Source: Streptomyces violaceusniger (GTDB taxonomy: Bacteria; Actinomycetota; Actinomycetes; Streptomycetales; Streptomycetaceae). From it: a DNA stretch of 64,000 nucleotides. Below the pieces are notes generated by a model that was given only the letters and a program-made list of their open reading frames with translations, was not told the DNA's origin and ran no database searches. This document shows, in pieces, positions 13,709 to 22,268 of the stretch (positions within the stretch are counted from its first letter, which is position 1; every line of letters starts with the position of its first letter). Made by a program: the position numbers and the translations under genes. The stretch is taken from the NCBI GenBank assembly GCA_005405945.1, contig BJHW01000001.1, positions 6,696,001 through 6,760,000 of the forward strand, written 5' to 3'.

Positions 13709-13914
13709 GACGTCGTGTCGTCCTTCCCGGGACGATGTCGGATGGCGCAAACCCCCCAAAGACAGACTAAGCGGAAATATGACTCGTATTCAGTATTGGT
13801 GAGGGGTGTTGACACGGTGTCGCGGCGACAGCCGGAGCAGTGGCATGGCACGGAGGGGAGAAAGCCAGGAAAATCGGCAGGGCGGCGTGGCGTCGATCAC
13901 AGCGGGAGGCAGCG

Positions 13915-15620
13915 GTGAAAACACCGGCACTGGGACCGGCCGAGCGCGGCGAGGCGCTGGCCCGGATGGCGGACCGTGAGCTCGATGTGCTGGTCGTGGG
14001 CGGCGGGGTGGTCGGCGCGGGCACCGCGCTGGACGCCGCGACGCGGGGCCTGGAGACCGGTCTGGTCGAGTCGCGGGACTGGGCCTCCGGGACCTCCAGC
14101 CGGTCCAGCAAGCTGATCCACGGCGGACTGCGCTATCTGGAGATGCTGGACTTCGCACTGGTGCGCGAGGCGCTGAAGGAGCGCGGGCTGCTGCTGGAGC
14201 GGATCGCACCGCACCTGGTCAAGCCCGTGCCGTTCCTGTACCCGCTGCAACACCGGGTCTGGGAGCGGTTCTACGCGGGCTCGGGCGTCGCGCTCTACGA
14301 CACCATGTCGATCTCCTCCGGGCACGGCCGCGGACTGCCCGCCCACCGCCATCTGAGCCGCGGGCGTGCGCTGCGCGTGGCCCCCTGCCTCAAGAAGGAC
14401 GCGCTGGTCGGGGCGTTGCAGTACTACGACGCCCAGATGGACGACGCCCGCTACGTCACCACGCTCGTGCGCACGGCGGCGGAGTACGGCGCCCACGTGG
14501 CCAACCGCGCGCGGGTGGTCGGCTTCCTGCGGGAGGGCGAGCGCGTGGTCGGCGCCCGGGTGCACGACCTGGAGCAGGGCGGCGAGTTCGAGGTCCGCGC
14601 CCGGCAGGTGGTCAACGCCACCGGGGTGTGGACCGACGAGACCCAGGCGCTGATCGGCGAGCGCGGCCAGTTCCACGTCCGGGCCTCCAAGGGCATCCAC
14701 CTGGTGGTCCCCAAGGACCGCATCCACTCCACGACCGGGCTGATCCTGCGCACCGAGAAGAGCGTGCTGTTCGTGATCCCCTGGGGCAGGCACTGGATCA
14801 TCGGCACCACGGACACCGACTGGGACCTGGACAAGGCCCACCCGGCCGCCTCCAGCGCCGATATCGACTATCTGCTGGAGCACGTCAACGAGGTCCTCGC
14901 GGTGCCGCTGACCCGCGACGACGTGGAGGGCGTCTACGCCGGGCTGCGCCCGCTGCTGGCCGGGGAGTCGGACGCCACCAGCAAGCTCTCCCGCGAGCAC
15001 ACGGTCGCCCATCCGGTGCCGGGCCTGGTGGTGGTCGCGGGCGGCAAGTACACCACGTACCGGGTGATGGCCAAGGACGCCGTGGACGAGGCGGTGCACG
15101 GCCTCGACCGCCGGGTCGGGCCCTGCGTCACCGAGGAGATCCCGCTGGTCGGCGCCGTCGGCTACAAGGCGCTGTGGAACGCCCGGGAGCGGATCGGCCG
15201 ACAGCACGGGCTGCACGCGGCGCGGATCGAGCATCTGCTCAACCGCTACGGCTCGGCGGCGCAGGAGGTGCTGGACCTGATCGCGGGCGACGCGTCCCTG
15301 GGGAAGCCGCTCGCCGGGGCGGAGGACTATCTGCGCGCCGAGGTCGCTTACGCCGCCTCGCACGAGGGGCCCGCCACCTGGACGACGTCCTCACCCGCCG
15401 CACCCGCATCTCGATCGAGACCTTCGACCGCGGCACGCGCTGCGCCCGCGAGGTGGCCGAGCTGATGGGGCCCGTGCTGGGCTGGACCGGGGACCAGCTC
15501 GACCGGGAGGTCCAGCACTACGAGAAGCGGGTGGAGGCGGAGCGCGAGTCCCAGCGTCAGCCGGACGACCTGACGGCGGACGCGGCCCGGCTGGGCGCGC
15601 CGGACATCATCCCGCTGTAG
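13915..15620 (+). CDS. glpD: Aerobic glycerol-3-phosphate dehydrogenase (one frameshift)
   Basis: An FAD-dependent, membrane-associated enzyme that oxidises glycerol 3-phosphate to dihydroxyacetone phosphate and feeds the quinone pool. The N-terminal FAD motif VVGGGVVGAGTALDAATRGL (about 26-45) is followed by SSRSSKLIHGGLRYLE. GKYTTYRVMAKDAVD is the C-terminal FAD contact, and the DAO C-terminal domain follows. After SHEG (about 485) the frame breaks; one extra G in the run at 15366-15369 restores ARHLDDVLTRRTRISIE and a 568-residue protein ending at 15620. GTG 13915 has GGGAGG 6 bp upstream. The upstream gap holds TTGACA (13809-13814) overlapping an 11-bp palindrome GACACGGTGTC (13811-13821), a plausible promoter/operator. 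It is convergent with the serine hydrolase. Confidence 0.92.
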
Positions 15621-15641
15621 CCGGACCTCATCCCGCTGTAG
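15600..15641. repeat. 21-bp tandem duplication over the convergent stops of glpD and the serine hydrolase
   Basis: CCGGACMTCATCCCGCTGTAG occurs twice (15600-15620 and 15621-15641, one mismatch). The glpD TAG ends the first copy, and the stop of the opposite gene (15628-15630) lies in the second. Confidence 0.88.
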
Positions 15642-16891
15642 GAGGAGGTCGCGTGTCTTGCCGACGAGGACAGAACTCGGCCTCGAGCAGGGACGTTTCG
15701 GCGGTCAGACCGGAGGCGGCGGTGCTGTTGAGCCGGTAGGCGAGGCTGTGGCGGCCGTCGGGTGTGGTCACGGCCAGCGCGTACGAGCCGTTGATCTCGC
15801 CGTTGTGGCCCCACAGCGTCACCCCGCACGCCAGCGGCACCGGGAAGAGCCCCATGCCGTACCGGCCGTCGGAGGCGGAGGTGTTCCGCATCTGCCGCAG
15901 CTCGGCCCGGGGCACGACCTTGCCGCGCAGCAGCCCGGGGAGGAGGAGGGTCAGATCGCCGAGCGTGGAGATCAGCTCCCCCGCGGCCCCGCCGAGGAGG
16001 GGTTGAGGTCGGTGACATCGCGCCGGGCGCCGCCGTCCCCGGCCCCGCCGTCCCGCGTGTACGCGCGGCCGTGCGGGTCCGGGAGGGTGGTGCGGGTGCC
16101 GGGGAAGGAGGTGCCGTGCAGACGCAGGGGGCGAGCACGTCGCGCCGGGCCTCGGTCGCGTAGGAGCGGCCGGTGACCCGCTGGACGACCATGCCCAGCA
16201 GCACGTAGTTGGTGTTGGAGTAGCGCCAGGTGGCCCCGGGTGCGGAGTACGGGCGGTGCGCGACGGCGGTCCGCACCAGGGAGGCGGGGGTGCGGGTGCG
16301 GTCGGCCGCCGCGGACAGCTGACGGGCCAGCGCCGGGTCGGCGGTGTAGTCGAACAGCCCGCTGGTCTGGTTCAGCAGCTGACGGATCGTGATGGCCCGG
16401 CCGTCGTTGCCGTGGCCGCGCACCAGCCCCGGGAGGTGTTCCTCCACCGTGTCGCCGAGGCCGAGCCGCCCCTGGGCGGCAAGACGCAGCGTCACCGCCG
16501 CGATGACGGTCTTGGTGAGGCTGCCCGCCCGGAAGCGGTCGTTCCGGTGGATCCGGCGTCCGGTGCTGACGTTCGCGACCCCCGAGGCGAGGTACCGCGT
16601 GCCGCCGCCCTCCCGGCGGATGAGCACCGCGGCCCCCGGCGCGTCGCCCTGGGCCGCCAACCGCCGTACGGCGGCGCGCAGGACACCGTCACGGCCGCCC
16701 TCGGCGCCCGGGCTCGCGCTCGCGCTCGCCCGCGGGTCCGCGTCCCGGCCCGGTTCCGTGGCCGCCGCGTCCCGGCCCGGTTGCGTGGCCGCCGCGCCGC
16801 AGCCGGACAGGACGAGCGCGAGGGCGGTGGTGAGCGCCACGGCGGTCGGCATACGGCTCCGCCTGTGCCATCGTATGGCGGAGATGGGCAT
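15628..16891 (-). CDS. Serine hydrolase lipoprotein, beta-lactamase/DD-peptidase fold (two frameshifts)
   Basis: The lipoprotein signal ends in LSGCG (about 28-32). The class C beta-lactamase/DD-carboxypeptidase domain has catalytic SLTK (FRAGSLTKTVIAAV) and the YSNTNYVLLG box with the Tyr-X-Asn motif, plus the third box GHNGEINGS near the C-terminus. The reading frame needs one base added to the run at 16127-16131 and one at 15987-15990; this gives a continuous 421-residue protein that includes DVTDLNPSSAGAAGELISTL. Likely roles are D-Ala-D-Ala carboxypeptidase or esterase outside the membrane. The start is ATG 16891 (the next Met is at 14). The two breaks make loss of function possible if they are real. 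Confidence 0.82.
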
Positions 16892-17052
16892 GACACGGAC
16901 CTCCGTTTCCTGCGTACTCCCAGATGGTCGCAGGTACCGCGGTGGCCGCCACGCCGCGCCCCGGACCCGAGGCGGTTCCGGGTCCGCGGATGAGAGACAA
17001 TGGACGCTCTCCCAGGGTGGGTTCAGGGTGGGTAGATTTACAGAGGGGTCGC

Positions 17053-19038
17053 ATGTCGGAGGCTGAGAAGACGCAGGGTTCGACTGGGCGCCTCCTCGCC
17101 GGGCGGTACCGGCTCGGGGAGATCCTCGGTCAGGGCGGCATGGGCACGGTCTGGCGTGCGAGTGACCAGACCCTCGGCCGTACGGTCGCGGTCAAGGAGC
17201 TGCGCTTCCCGTCCAGCGTGGAGGAGGACGAGAAGAGACGGCTCATCACCCGTACGCTGCGCGAGGCGAAGGCGATCGCCCGGATCCGCAGCAACGGCGC
17301 CGTCACCGTCTACGACGTGGTCGACGAGGACGACCGCCCGTGGATCGTCATGGAGCTCATCGAGGGCCGCTCCCTCGCCGACGTCGTCCGCGACGACGGC
17401 CCGCTGACCCCCAAGCGCGCCGCCGAGGTCGGGCTCGCCGTCCTCGATGTGCTGCGCGCCGCCCACCAGGCGGGCATCCTGCACCGCGATGTGAAGCCCT
17501 CCAACGTGCTGATCTCGGACGACGGCCGGGTCGTCCTCACCGACTTCGGCATCGCCCAGGTCGAGGGCGACCCGTCGGTGACCTCGACCGGCATGCTCGT
17601 CGGCGCGCCCTCCTACATCTCCCCGGAGCGGGCCCGCGGCCACAAGCCCGGCCCGCCGGCCGACCTGTGGTCGCTGGGCGGGCTGCTGTACGCGGCGGTG
17701 GAGGGCGTGCCGCCGTACGACAAGAGCACGGCCATAGCGACCCTGACGGCCGTGATGACCGAGCCGGTGGAGCCGCCGAAGAACGCGGGCCCGCTGGAGG
17801 AGGTCATCTACGGCCTGCTCACCAAGGACCCGGACCGGCGGCTCGACGACGCCGGGGCGCGGGCGCTGCTGGAGCATGTGGTGAACGGGCCCGAGGCGGC
17901 CAAGGCCCCCGCCGACGCGACCCGCACGATGAGCCTGCCGCCCGCCCCGTCGAAGGAGGACGAGGCAGACGCCGAGGCCAAGGAGACGGCCGTCGCGGAG
18001 CGCAGGCGCGGCGCGCTGAAGTCGGTGCGCAACGCGGCCGCCGCCGCGGCCGCGAAGAAGGCGGGGGACGAGAGCGGGGCGGCGTCGGGGGCGGCATCGG
18101 CGTCGGGCGCGAAGTCCGGTGCGGCGGGCTCCGGGGCCGCGGGCTCCGTGTCGGACGCCGCGACGCCCGAGGCCGCGCCCGCCCCGCGGCCCACCCTGCC
18201 GCCGCGCGCCTCGATCACCGACGTGGTCCCCAAGCGCACGCTGATCATCATCGCGGCGGTCGTGGTGCTCGCCATCGTGGCCACCGTGCTCGCCGTCGTC
18301 CTGAACGACGGCGGGGACGGCGGCGACAACACCAAGGGCTCCTCCGGCGGCGACAAGTCCGCCTCCGCCGGGGCCTCGGGCGGCTCCAAGGAGGACCAGG
18401 GCAAGGGCACCGACAAGACCGGCCAGTCGGCGGGCGAGTCGCCGAAGACGGAGACGTCCGGCGGCAAGCAGAGCGGTCAGCCGGAGTCCTCCAAGGAGTC
18501 GGACGACAACTCGGGCAAGGGCGGCGGCGGAAGCGACGACAACGGCGGTAAGGGCAAGGGCGGCGGCGGTAAGGGCGGCCTGCCCGACGGCTACAAGACC
18601 GTCAAGAGCTCCGACTTCCCGTTCAGCATGGCCATGCCGGAGGGCTGGTCGGTCCACCCCGGGAGCTATTCCGGAAGCCGTAAGTACTACGGCGGCTCCA
18701 GCATTCCGCGTATTCAGATCGACTTCACCAACGCGCCGAAGTCCGACGCGGAGGCGGACTGGCGCAAGAGCGAGGAGAACGCCCGGCGCACCATGTCCGG
18801 CTACAAGGGCCTCGGCATCAAGTCGGTCGACTGGCGCGGCTACCCGACCGTCGCGGACTGGGAGTTCGAGCGACTCGATCGGGACGGCAAGCGGGTCCAC
18901 GTCATCAACCGCGGCTTCAAGGCGGACGGCAGCCATGGCTTCGCCATACTGATCACCTGCGAGGCGAGCAAGTGGGACGACAAGGAGTGCACCACCCTCC
19001 GCCAGACCGCCTTCGACACCTTCAAGATTACGGACTGA
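17053..19038 (+). CDS. Membrane Ser/Thr protein kinase with extracellular sensor domain
   Basis: 661 residues. The cytoplasmic kinase domain (about 17-275) is complete: glycine loop GQGGMGTVW, VAVK lysine, HRDVKPSNVL catalytic loop, DFGIAQ and the APSYISPE activation segment. A long Ala/Ser/Glu-rich linker follows, then one transmembrane helix (TLIIIAAVVVLAIVATVLAV, about 397-416). An extracellular Gly/Ser/Lys linker leads to a roughly 150-residue C-terminal domain opening FPFSMAMPEGWSVHPG. The same domain type ends the next protein, which suggests a common ligand or partner. From memory, S. coelicolor has a kinase cluster in this syntenic region implicated in spore-wall formation. Start ATG 17053, after GAGGGGT; the upstream frame to 16924 is not conserved. 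Confidence 0.93.
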   Translation: MSEAEKTQGSTGRLLAGRYRLGEILGQGGMGTVWRASDQTLGRTVAVKELRFPSSVEEDEKRRLITRTLREAKAIARIRSNGAVTVYDVVDEDDRPWIVMELIEGRSLADVVRDDGPLTPKRAAEVGLAVLDVLRAAHQAGILHRDVKPSNVLISDDGRVVLTDFGIAQVEGDPSVTSTGMLVGAPSYISPERARGHKPGPPADLWSLGGLLYAAVEGVPPYDKSTAIATLTAVMTEPVEPPKNAGPLEEVIYGLLTKDPDRRLDDAGARALLEHVVNGPEAAKAPADATRTMSLPPAPSKEDEADAEAKETAVAERRRGALKSVRNAAAAAAAKKAGDESGAASGAASASGAKSGAAGSGAAGSVSDAATPEAAPAPRPTLPPRASITDVVPKRTLIIIAAVVVLAIVATVLAVVLNDGGDGGDNTKGSSGGDKSASAGASGGSKEDQGKGTDKTGQSAGESPKTETSGGKQSGQPESSKESDDNSGKGGGGSDDNGGKGKGGGGKGGLPDGYKTVKSSDFPFSMAMPEGWSVHPGSYSGSRKYYGGSSIPRIQIDFTNAPKSDAEADWRKSEENARRTMSGYKGLGIKSVDWRGYPTVADWEFERLDRDGKRVHVINRGFKADGSHGFAILITCEASKWDDKECTTLRQTAFDTFKITD

Positions 19039-19195: not shown

Positions 19196-22100
19196 GTGGA
19201 GGAGTACGCGGGCCGGGTGCTGGCCGACCGCTATCGCCTGCCCCTGCCCCCGCCGACGAGTACGAACTGATCGAGACCCGCGCCTTCGACACCTACAGCG
19301 GGCAGGAAGTCCATCTGCGGCAGATACCGCTGCCGGAGGTCGTCGACGCGGAAGTCGTGGGCGACGACGCGCGGTGGGGCGGCGGTGGGCCGTCCGGGCG
19401 GAACGGCACGTTCGCCGGTGCCGGGCGTACGGCACGGGGCGGCGGTGACCCGGCCGTACGGCGCGCCATCGCGGCGGCGACATCCGCCGCGCAGATCCCC
19501 GACCATCCCCGGCTCGGCCAGGTCTTCCATGTCTTCGCGGAGGCCGGAAGCCTGTGGATCGTCAGCGAACTGGTCTCCGGCCGCCCGCTGGCCGCGCTGC
19601 TCGCCGAGGGCACGCTCTCCCCGCACCGCGCCGCCGAGGTCGCCAACGACATCCTTACGGCGCTGCGCGCCCTGCACGCCCACGGCTGGGTGCACCGCAA
19701 CATCACCGCCCGTACGGTGCTGTTGTGCGACGACGGGCGCGCGATGCTCACGGGGCTGGCGGCGGGCGCGGCGGAGGAGGCGCTGTGCGGCTACGACCCC
19801 GTTCCGGCGCCCACCTCCTCGCCGTCGCCGAACGCCGTGTCCGCTGCTGAGGAAGGACCGTCGGCTGACGCCCCGGCCTCCCTGCCGCCGGGCCCGGCGG
19901 GTTCCGGCGACCACCCGGACCGGTCCGCCGGGGACCGGGCCGCCGGGGACCTGGGCGAGCGAGGGGACGCGGGGCGTGCCGCCATCCCCGGAGCCCGTAT
20001 GGCCGAGGGCGGCGAGGCACGGCCGCACGGCGGCCCGCGCTATCACGACCAGGGCGCCGCGGGCGGCTTCCCGCCGCCGGGCCGCCCTTACGGTGGCCAT
20101 GAACCGGCGGGCGCGGCACGACCCGACGAATCCGCGGGCGCGGCCTGGCCCGACGAACGGGCGGGCGCGGTCTGGCCCGAGGCCGACGGCCGGGAACACG
20201 GCGGCCAGGGCACATCGCCGAGTCTCCCCGAGCCACGGTCGCCTTACGGTGGCCACGGGGCGCTGGAGGCGAGTTCGGGGCCGGGCGCGGGTGGCTCTGC
20301 GGGGTCCGGTGCAGGCGGTTCGGCGAGGCCCGGCGCAGGTGGCCCGGCGGGCCCGGGCGGTTCGGCGGGCGCGGGTCCGGGCCCGGGCGCCGGTGGTCCG
20401 GCGGGTGCGGGCGCCGGTGGTCCGGCGAGGCCCCGGCCCGGCGGCCCGGTGTATCGGGATCAGGTGACGTTCGGCCCGGGGGCCGGTGGGCCCATGGCGC
20501 CATACCGGGACCAGGCGGCCGCCGGTGGACTGCCCGGGCCGCGGCGGGTGGGCCGGCCGGGACAGCCGGAACAGCCGGGGGACCGGGAGGGCGAACGGGG
20601 CGGCGTCGGCGCCGATGCGCCGAACGCGGCCGCGCGGGCGGCGCGGGCCAGCGCCATCGCCGCCTACGCGGCGGGCGCGCGGGCCGCCGCACGGGCCAAC
20701 GTCGACGCGGCCCCCGCTCCCCGCACGCCCCCGAGCCCGCACCCACGCCCGAGCCCGCCCCGGAGCCGGTGACCGGCGGCGCTCGCTGGCCCGGCCAGCC
20801 GGAGGGGGCGGAGAACGCCCAGCCGACCGCCTCGGAAGCCCCGTCCGCCTCCGAAGGCCCGTCCGTCCCCCAAGGCCTGACCGCCCCCGAGGGCGGCTCC
20901 TGGGACTCCGGCGGAGCCACCGGCGGCGGCCCCGCCACCGCGCTCGCAGCCGAACGCGCCCGCCAGGCCCGTATCGTCGTGGTCGGTGCCGTCACCGAGC
21001 GATGGGCGCCCGAGCAGGCGGGCCCGGTCCATGAGAACTGGCGGCTGGCGCCCCCGGTCGGCCCCGCCGCCGATCTGTGGGCGCTCGGCGTGCTGCTGTT
21101 CCGCGCGGTGCAGGGCCATGCCCCGTACCCGGAGGAGAGCGCCGCCGAGCTGGTGCAGATGGTCTGCGCGGAGGCGCCCGCGTACGCGGAGGAGTGCGGT
21201 CCGCTGCGCCCCGTCGTCGAGTCGCTGATGCGCCAGGACCCCACCGAGCGCCCGGACTTCGAGGAGCTGCGCGGCTGGCTGCGGTCCCTGATCCGGTCGG
21301 CGCCCGAGCCGGACGTCGGCATCAGCACGGTCACGGTGCCCTCGCTCGGCTCGGGCGGCGCCTCCGACCCCCGGCGGCTGCCGATCGTCCGCAGGCGAGG
21401 CTGGCTGGTGCGCAGGGGCCGGGGTCGCCGCCCCGCCGCGGCGGCCGACGCGCCGGTGGGCCACGCGCGGCACCGGCGGGACAAGCGCGAGAAGCGGGAG
21501 CGGAGAGAGCCCCGGGAGACCCGGCAGGCTCCCCCGGCACCCACCCAGCGCAAGCCGCGCAGACTGGGGCGGATGCTGCTGCTCCTGATCCTCCTGGGGC
21601 TGGCGGCCGCGGTGCTCTACGCGATGATGTTCATGCCGCGCTCCAAGGACGACGGCGGCCAGGGGCGTACGGGCTCGGCCGGTGTGCCGAGCGCGGCACC
21701 GAGCGCCCCCGCGGGCGGCGACGGCGTCAAGGGTGACGGCGACGAGGGGGAGGCCGGGAAGCCCGCCGACCCCGGCGACCAGGAGCCGCAGTCCACCGAC
21801 CCGGCCGGGCTGGCGAAGGGCTTCGCGGTCCGTAAGGACCCCAAGGGCTTCAAGGTCGCCGTCCACGAGGGCTGGACCCGCCGGGGCGAGAACGGCCGCG
21901 GCCAGATCCGCTACCTCGGCGGCGACTTCGAGCTGGTGGTCGTGGCCGGGCGGGACAAGATGTCCGAGTTCGGCGGCGACCCGATGGCGTACCAGCAGGA
22001 CCGCGAGGCCGAACTGTCCGCCTTCCGCGGCTCCTCCTGGGCCTCGTCCTCCGGGCTGCGGCGGATCGACGTCGGCCGTACGGCGATGGCGGAGGGCGCG

Positions 22101-22268
22101 TTCACCTGGCGCGACAGCAGCGGGCGCAATGTGTACGCGCGCAACCTCGCGATGCTGATCGACGGCCGATACCACGTGGTCCTGGTCATCGGCCCGTCCG
22201 ATGAGCGCCGGGCGGTCAACCAGTACTTCGAGCAGGCCACGGCCACGTACAGCACCACCACCGGCTAG
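19196..22268 (+). CDS. Membrane Ser/Thr pseudokinase (two frameshifts)
   Basis: A kinase-like protein of about 1024 residues. GTG 19196 follows TTGGGGAGG. One base added to the C run at 19247-19251 joins ADRYRLPLPP to ADEYELIETRAFD; another at 20728-20732 joins APRTPP to EPAPTPEPAPEPVTG. The kinase fold is recognisable (RPLAALLAEGTLSPHRAAEV, then AADLWALGVLLFRAVQGHAP), but all catalytic motifs are lost: VAVK is VHLR, HRD is HRN (WVHRNITARTVLL), and DFG is replaced by LTGLAAG. The activation-loop region holds a Gly/Ala/Pro-rich insertion of about 400 residues. A basic segment, one transmembrane helix (MLLLLILLGLAAAVLYAMMF) and an extracellular domain (KGFKVAVHEGWTRRG) follow. It is probably a regulatory partner of the kinase just upstream. 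It ends overlapping the stop of the next gene. Confidence 0.85.

Follow-up and report, generated by a model that had tools for sequence, protein, structure and literature searches.

Here we examine a gene predicted to code for a membrane-anchored, catalytically dead relative of the Ser/Thr kinases, which lies directly downstream of an intact kinase gene (K1) in a stretch of 64,000 nucleotides (the window, whose numbering is used throughout) from the 11.7 Mb genome of Streptomyces violaceusniger. The two genes and their parts are collected in Table 1. At this locus, the named relatives with the highest scores are from S. rugosispiralis, S. endocoffeicus, S. sabulosicollis, S. antioxidans and S. 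iranensis, with protein identities of 90-93%.

Table 1. Features of the pseudokinase gene and of the adjacent active kinase (window coordinates; ORF, open reading frame)
Feature	Position	Strand	Basis or remark
Active Ser/Thr kinase K1, PkaH-type by gene order	16924..19038	+	Pfam Pkinase E-value 3.6e-45; true start may lie downstream of the listed ORF start
K1 VAVK	17185-17196	+	sequence
K1 HRD	17482-17496	+	sequence
K1 DFG	17542-17550	+	sequence
K1 transmembrane helix	18238-18303	+	sequence
K1 extracellular domain	18589-19035	+	sequence
Pseudokinase gene, ActPs2 type by architecture	19196..22268	+	two frame changes interrupt the gene in the present assembly
Frame change, 2 to 1	19249..19252	+	within a C run; intact in relatives
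Pseudokinase N-lobe and former catalytic segment	19255..19785	+	no glycine loop; beta-3 Lys to Arg, HRD to HRN, DFG to TGL; Pfam Pkinase E-value 2.1e-8
VHLR in place of VAVK, in EVHLRQI	19306-19326	+	
HRN in place of HRD	19693-19707	+	
LTGLAAG in place of DFG	within 19744-19785	+	
Activation-loop insert	19786..20993	+	about 400 residues, low complexity, from EEAL (end 19785) to TERWAPE (from 20994); contains the second frame change
Conserved Ala-rich helix motif ARASAIAAYAAGARAAAR in insert	20629..20700	+	AIAAY core in 61/61 full-length Streptomyces copies
Frame change, 1 to 3	20713..20735	+	intact in relatives
Pseudokinase C-lobe (APE, DxW, alpha-F to alpha-I) and following RSAPEP motif	20952..21311	+	highest conservation measured across the three genes compared
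APE and DxW	20994-21089	+	
Pseudokinase transmembrane helix	21564..21635	+	sequence; helix 586-607 in the model of the ortholog at locus L076
Pseudokinase extracellular domain, PsbP/Mog1/LpqN-like fold	21819..22265	+	ortholog model, Foldseek, structural alignment

A dead kinase domain of ancient standing

The initial annotation of this DNA had read the second gene as a membrane pseudokinase in which the VAVK lysine, the HRD aspartate and the DFG motif are all replaced, the kinase remnants, transmembrane helix and extracellular domain are retained, a loop of some 400 residues is inserted, and a kinase with all three motifs intact sits next door; each of these elements is borne out by our analysis. 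The domain has shed the glycine loop, the beta-3 Lys, the HRD Asp, the Lys and Asn that follow HRD, and the DFG Asp. In profile searches, the second piece of the gene matches Pfam Pkinase with an E-value of 3.7e-4, under the curated cut-off, and the hits in an NCBIfam search were all below the cut-offs of that library.

The gene is widespread. A clear C-lobe ortholog (E-value below 1e-40) is present in 57 of the 61 Streptomyces genomes sampled, that of the window included, and two further Streptomyces genomes (G001 and G010) hold the N part; the C-lobe identity in the other genomes of this genus sample having a C-lobe is 81-98%. Beyond the genus, 15 genomes from other Streptomycetaceae genera have copies with 62-82% C-lobe identity (hereafter mid-distance), and 13 further genomes have copies whose N parts are 45-57% identical (hereafter distant). 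For the motif counts we used 80 related loci, 67 of which contain the N part, and 61 of which were accepted as full length by pattern; those rejected comprise 13 that start at or near a contig end, one split copy (L015), one in two frames (L084) and four pattern variants, and a Streptomyces copy with a run of N (L124) was omitted. In the window and these loci, HRN is found in 68/68, a T/S-G-L triplet at the DFG position in 68/68, the beta-3 Arg in 67/68, and the APE together with the D and W of DxW in 81/81 C parts. The catalytic Asp is missing from all 96 sequences (the window, 67 loci, 15 mid-distance and 13 distant copies), its column being occupied by Asn in 61/61 Streptomyces, 15/15 mid-distance and 12/13 distant copies, and by Ala in the remaining distant one. 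The column of the DFG Asp holds a G in 89/89, which can be aligned either as a substitution or as a deletion, and 8 of the 15 mid-distance copies read LDG.

Thus, a check on the orthologs set beforehand found the losses kept in every sequence examined, and a pseudokinase is strongly supported. As judged from the alignments, the losses are not chance decay, because the catalytic Asp is an Asn in the window and in 67/67 other loci with the N part. Further, in a tree of 88 kinase domains, 36 pseudokinases form one side of a single branch with a support of 100/100 (L116 and L121 of the 13 distant copies were omitted from it, and two rows marked as other, from L008 and L023, are actually K1 kinases). 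Since the catalytic Asp is gone in all copies and these fall on one such branch, the dead state is old and, as far as sampled, of single origin. Certain kinases that lack a canonical residue are active, such as WNK, which is among those discussed in a recent review (PMC12599244), and one might thus suppose that a weak activity lingers here despite the losses. However, with the catalytic base, the lysine, the glycine loop and the metal ligand all gone, we consider this exceedingly improbable.

The kinase fold itself is recovered in the predicted structure of the L076 ortholog, which aligns with PknB (2fum) with a Z-score of 25.6 and a root-mean-square deviation (rmsd) of 2.9 over 246 residues at 25% identity; the best matches of the kinase-domain model, MEK1 (3wig, Z 25.8), PknB and PknA (4ow8, Z 25.5), are tied. 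A model from the orthologs alone gave a poor kinase domain, with a mean predicted local distance difference test score (pLDDT) of 56, and a good one once active kinases were mixed in. The N-lobe is also distended: the beta-3 strand and a PDHP landmark are separated by 47-83 residues (median 57, n = 61), and the distance to the matching HP in active kinases is 21-30 residues (median 29, n = 115 scored).

The initial annotation had missed that this architecture was already known: it fits that of the ActPs2 pseudokinases described by O'Boyle et al. 2025 (PMC12599244), a family to which the review assigns no function in the portion devoted to it. As described there, ActPs2 proteins are actinobacterial and share with the present one the beta-3 Lys to Arg change, found in nearly all members, the HRD to HRN change, an altered DFG, a transmembrane helix, an insertion of about 32 residues between beta-3 and alpha-C and a very long activation loop, with an extension of about 250 residues in about 90% of the members and a deletion of the DFG in most. 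The beta-3 Arg, HRN, pre-alpha-C insertion, long loop and transmembrane helix are all seen in the window and its Streptomyces relatives; as for the loop of about 250 residues, the Streptomyces copies fit, whereas the 15 mid-distance copies (41-150) do not. Section 7 of the review, which deals with ActPs2, is without gene neighborhoods or an extracellular fold; it describes the inserts as disordered and puts forward a set of ATP-binding arginines, whereas we find a conserved helix in the loop, arginines restricted to a lineage and a gene tied to a PkaH-type kinase. The family itself is known; new here are the constancy of the kinase neighbor, a counterpart in Streptomyces coelicolor whose phenotypes have been published, the fold of the extracellular domain, the helix of the loop and the history of the gene.

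Three other groups invite comparison. In the MviN protein the pseudokinase domain is part of a protein with multiple transmembrane helices. This domain (ActPs3) is likewise an actinobacterial membrane pseudokinase that has lost all motifs, but it differs in its pattern of catalytic-motif changes and in that its activation loop is deleted (PMC12599244); membership of ActPs3/MviN was rejected, the loop here being extended rather than deleted. EssB/YukC are also membrane pseudokinases with degraded motifs and a non-catalytic mode of action, but have a short activation loop and belong to the Type VII secretion apparatus of Firmicutes (PMC12599244). A PASTA kinase of the PknB/StkP kind was likewise rejected: no PASTA domain is found among the 10 Pfam families matched by 42 orthologs, the extracellular fold is PsbP/Mog1-like and the catalytic residues are lost.

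The loop, the extracellular domain and the seat of conservation

The activation loop is 155-545 residues long in Streptomyces (median 312, n = 61), 41-70 residues in 14 of the 15 mid-distance copies and 150 in the other, and 21 residues in all 215 active-kinase ORFs scored by pattern; the long version seems, on these lengths, to be a Streptomyces addition. We rejected the idea that the whole loop is random filler: it mostly drifts (median pairwise identity 45.6%; ratio of nonsynonymous to synonymous changes, pN/pS, 0.74), but one helix motif is constant. The form AxAIAAYxAGA is seen in 57 of the 61 full-length Streptomyces copies and the remaining four retain AIAAY; in a scan covering the Streptomyces and mid-distance copies, AIAAY was found in 0/15 of the latter. 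Both ortholog models draw a helix at the motif, with a pLDDT of about 43-51 in one and 62-75 in the other.

A loop this long and accessible, in a membrane-anchored pseudokinase beside an active kinase, could conceivably be a phosphorylated scaffold, wherein kinases modify either the loop or the juxtamembrane segment and an FHA-type protein is thereby recruited, as happens upon phosphorylation of the MviN pseudokinase in mycobacteria. However, the invariant element of the loop is an Ala-rich helix, the Thr/Ser positions tabulated after the kinase domain (EPDVGISTVTVPS) are not strictly conserved, and the loop is short in the mid-distance relatives; we hence deem a scaffold of this kind rather unlikely. 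A short RAPEP-like motif right after the kinase domain (21294-21311 in the window) was noticed in passing in many pseudokinase relatives, including distant ones (L111-L123).

The extracellular domain can be assigned with high confidence to the PsbP/Mog1/LpqN/DcrB fold based on an ortholog model, whose block means of pLDDT are 90-98 from residue 661 onward, the last two residues excepted. Foldseek matches it to PsbP with an E-value of 1.8e-8, and structural alignment recovers PsbP (2xb3; Z 14.6, rmsd 3.0, 144 aligned), Mog1p (1eq6; Z 13.7, rmsd 3.0, 144 aligned) and LpqN (6e5d; Z 12.5, rmsd 2.9, 133 aligned); what they have in common with the pseudokinase domain is the fold, the identity in the best structural-match rows being about 8-17%. 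The likeness to the extracellular domain of K1 claimed in the initial annotation is genuine, though weak at the sequence level (profile-profile probability 78%, E-value 1.9e-5, 137 columns, 20% identity). The accompanying notion of a receptor pair with one sensor domain survives in that the two domains are distantly related, but is weakened by the distant genomes: the pseudokinase extracellular domain is unmatched by any ORF at the 13 distant loci, beside the same kinase, and the distant pseudokinases stop just past the transmembrane helix in 12/13, the one at L112 continuing for a short tail. We rejected extracellular sensing common to both proteins as the function under conservation, given that these distant orthologs show no such domain yet stay beside the kinase; the sensor thus lies outside the conserved core of the pair. 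The K1 extracellular domain is recognizable by eye in most distant loci, excepting L112, L121 and the printed frame of L115. Visual inspection suggests that the PkaH-type kinases of L112 (230-1681) and L121 (118-1713), which are from two distant genera, are themselves without a PsbP-like extracellular domain.

Conservation was compared across K1, the pseudokinase and the kinase that follows it (K3) as median pairwise identity and pN/pS over the 49 of 61 species in which all three genes were scored. It peaks in the C-lobe of the pseudokinase (94.5%, pN/pS 0.09), ahead of the C-lobes of K1 (84.3%, 0.28) and K3 (78.2%, 0.35). The N parts stand at 85.0% (0.23) in the pseudokinase, 92.9% (0.13) in K1 and 83.2% (0.27) in K3, and the extracellular domains at 71.9% (0.43) in the pseudokinase and 68.0% (0.47) in K1. 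That the C-lobe of a dead kinase should be more constrained than those of its live neighbors suggests that it is a binding surface.

A putative partner of a PkaH-type kinase

A kinase with an HRD motif lies directly upstream in 59 of the 61 full-length Streptomyces loci, the other two of which begin 1.2-1.5 kb from a contig start; it has DFG in 59/59 and VAVK in 58/59, the pattern returning VAVR for one (it was selected by the HRD motif, so HRD is not an independent count). K1 and the pseudokinase lie within about 3 kb of each other in 14 of the 15 mid-distance genomes, the other having them on different contigs, and adjoin in 13/13 distant genomes, such that an active kinase is adjacent in 86/86 testable loci, of 89. 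In 41 genomes (the family sample less four Streptomyces, plus four Streptomyces lacking a clear C-lobe match), the pseudokinase is found in 31 of the 33 with K1 and in none of the 8 without it; in one of the two exceptions (G058) K1 lies at a contig end, and the other (G089) is taken up below. No further kinase ORF is seen within about 6 kb downstream in 9 of the 61 Streptomyces loci, among them the closest relatives of the window, and the pair is still there; it can therefore exist independently of the other cluster genes.

That cluster is known from S. coelicolor, where the gene order is SCO4775 (pkaH), SCO4776, SCO4777 (pkaD), SCO4778 (pkaI) and SCO4779 (pkaJ) (PMC4416010); against these five genes, the window holds positions 1 and 2 only. 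In four of our loci (L050, L073, L077 and L079), K1, the pseudokinase and K3 are followed by a gene matching strict PkaI peptide patterns, and in a fifth (L071) a cut pseudokinase is followed by K3 and a PkaI-like gene; these five are all the matches to the patterns among 76 loci, the PkaI-like gene being two places downstream of the pseudokinase. By gene order, then, the pseudokinase would correspond to SCO4776, which occupies the same place, position 2 of the cluster (PMC4416010), and K1 to PkaH. SCO4776 was published as a eukaryotic-type Ser/Thr protein kinase (eSTPK), the word pseudokinase occurring 0 times in that paper, and a second copy of it is reported to disturb spores in the way that the kinases do (PMC4416010). 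Provided that the assignment is correct, the same defect would arise from an additional copy of a non-enzyme, which fits the titration of a complex. In a literature search, thin on subscription papers, we found none that calls SCO4776 a pseudokinase or pairs ActPs2 with a neighboring kinase.

Based on these observations, we propose that the ActPs2-type dead kinase is a non-catalytic membrane partner of the adjacent PkaH-type kinase in the Streptomyces sporulation kinase cluster, a proposal for which we hold belief and doubt to be in equal measure. It is founded on the losses in all orthologs examined, their single origin in our tree, the constant active-kinase neighbor, the conserved C-lobe and the C-terminal membrane anchor. 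The allosteric partnership with the upstream kinase suggested in the initial annotation is thereby supported indirectly, by adjacency and co-occurrence; the neighborhood is a matter of observation, and the contact is what we infer from it. Binding and tuning of PkaH is the best-supported mechanism, with about an even chance of being correct: the C-lobe and the loop helix would touch PkaH, either by itself or together with its substrate, and this contact would set the level or the place of PkaH activity in spore-wall synthesis, with the PsbP/Mog1-like extracellular domain perhaps tuning the pair in Streptomyces without being essential to the unit. In a more specific, and somewhat less probable, version, most Streptomycetaceae would retain a PkaH-type kinase and a dead kinase as a unit of two genes, the latter kinase being a dedicated allosteric partner with the C-lobe as its main surface; Streptomyces would later have added the giant loop, one helix of which docks onto PkaH, the pseudokinase itself or the spore-wall machinery.

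Several points weigh against a partnership of this kind. The correspondence with SCO4776 and PkaH comes from gene order and not from the sequence of SCO4776. Available portions of the S. coelicolor study report that the five genes are separately transcribed, that SCO4776 is transcribed constitutively and pkaH went undetected by reverse-transcription PCR (RT-PCR), and that the named two-hybrid partners of PkaI include PkaA and PkaD, not SCO4776 (PMC4416010). The co-occurrence counts are tempered by the K1 line of at least 68% identity having been set after seeing the rows, by four of the 41 genomes having been included for want of a clear C-lobe match, and by the genomes being related, so that the counts are not independent. 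G089 (5.4 Mb; L125, 899-4239) is a true counter-example, as it keeps K1 with a different gene in the place of the pseudokinase. Adjacency could reflect inheritance from a tandem duplication, and the N part is less conserved in the pseudokinase than in K1.

A different role, that of a nucleotide-sensing switch, has been raised in the ActPs2 review, where R42 and R177 are predicted to hold ATP (AlphaFold3 interface predicted template modeling score, iPTM, 0.87; PMC12599244). In our alignments, the phosphates would be held by the beta-3 Arg and the Arg four residues after HRN, and the shape seen by partners would change accordingly; position 42 is an Arg in 60 of the 61 Streptomyces copies, and the Arg following HRN has precisely the number 177 in 6 of the 61. 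These two sites are indeed kept in 60/61 and 61/61 Streptomyces copies. However, the glycine loop and the DFG Asp are absent, the first site is an Arg in 13/15 mid-distance and 0/13 distant copies, and the second in just 5 of the 15 mid-distance copies. In the 13 distant orthologs, which likewise adjoin this kinase, the beta-3 position holds E in five, D in four, H in two, and T and F in one each, and the second site is D in six, E in four, and W, A and R in one each. As the sites are mostly acidic in distant relatives, ATP holding by them would be at most a lineage trait and not a function common to all; we judge such a switch unlikely, if a shade less so than the scaffold considered above.

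If the more specific version of the partner hypothesis is true, the sporulation phenotype of SCO4776 published as a kinase overbalance would be titration by a non-enzyme. The published genetics also reads differently: SCO4776 has been listed among the spore-wall kinases and is predicted to lack kinase activity, yet its extra copy disturbs spores. More generally, the link of ActPs2 to SCO4776 and to a constant kinase neighbor gives a family of unknown function a testable role in a genetically tractable, harmless model organism; the conserved helix, inside a loop called disordered, is a target for mutation; and the absence from distant relatives of the arginines supposed to bind ATP speaks against nucleotide binding as a function common to all.

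Reading-frame breaks in the assembly

The initial annotation had treated 19196-22268 as a single open frame, which does not hold: the gene starts in frame 2, continues in frame 1 from about 19249 and in frame 3 from about 20713. In four close relatives (L008, L009, L011 and L048; DNA identity 92-94% over long aligned stretches, dropping to 78% in a single 0.5 kb stretch of L011) it is an intact single ORF of 995-1014 amino acids. Within about 14 kb, the window is one base short against all four relatives at 5 sites, every one in a G/C run (gap placements at most 5 nucleotides apart were counted as a single site): glpD has one of them, and the neighboring PF00144 gene and the pseudokinase gene have two each; over the same about 14 kb, no site was found at which the window is one base longer than all four. 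Because the close relatives are intact and the neighboring genes carry the same single-base losses in G/C runs, the two frame breaks are, on comparison of these sequences, most likely assembly errors, and further such errors are probably present elsewhere in the assembly. A programmed frameshift was rejected on the same grounds, namely the four intact relatives and the same type of loss in unrelated neighboring genes. The two frame changes seen in the assembly might also be real and mark a true pseudogene in the present strain; we hold this to be quite improbable in light of the like losses in glpD and the PF00144 gene and of the agreement of the window with its relatives at the tabulated motif columns.

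Apart from the kinase genes, the region 13840-16891 of the window has glpD and the PF00144 gene broken in frame by single-base losses in G/C runs, which are not found in the four close relatives. Other copies are also interrupted: that of S. himastatinicus (L015, 4661-7332) is in two ORFs, and that at L084 (3551-7503) has the N part in one frame and the C part in another, such that automatic annotation of this GC-rich pseudokinase gene is often unreliable.

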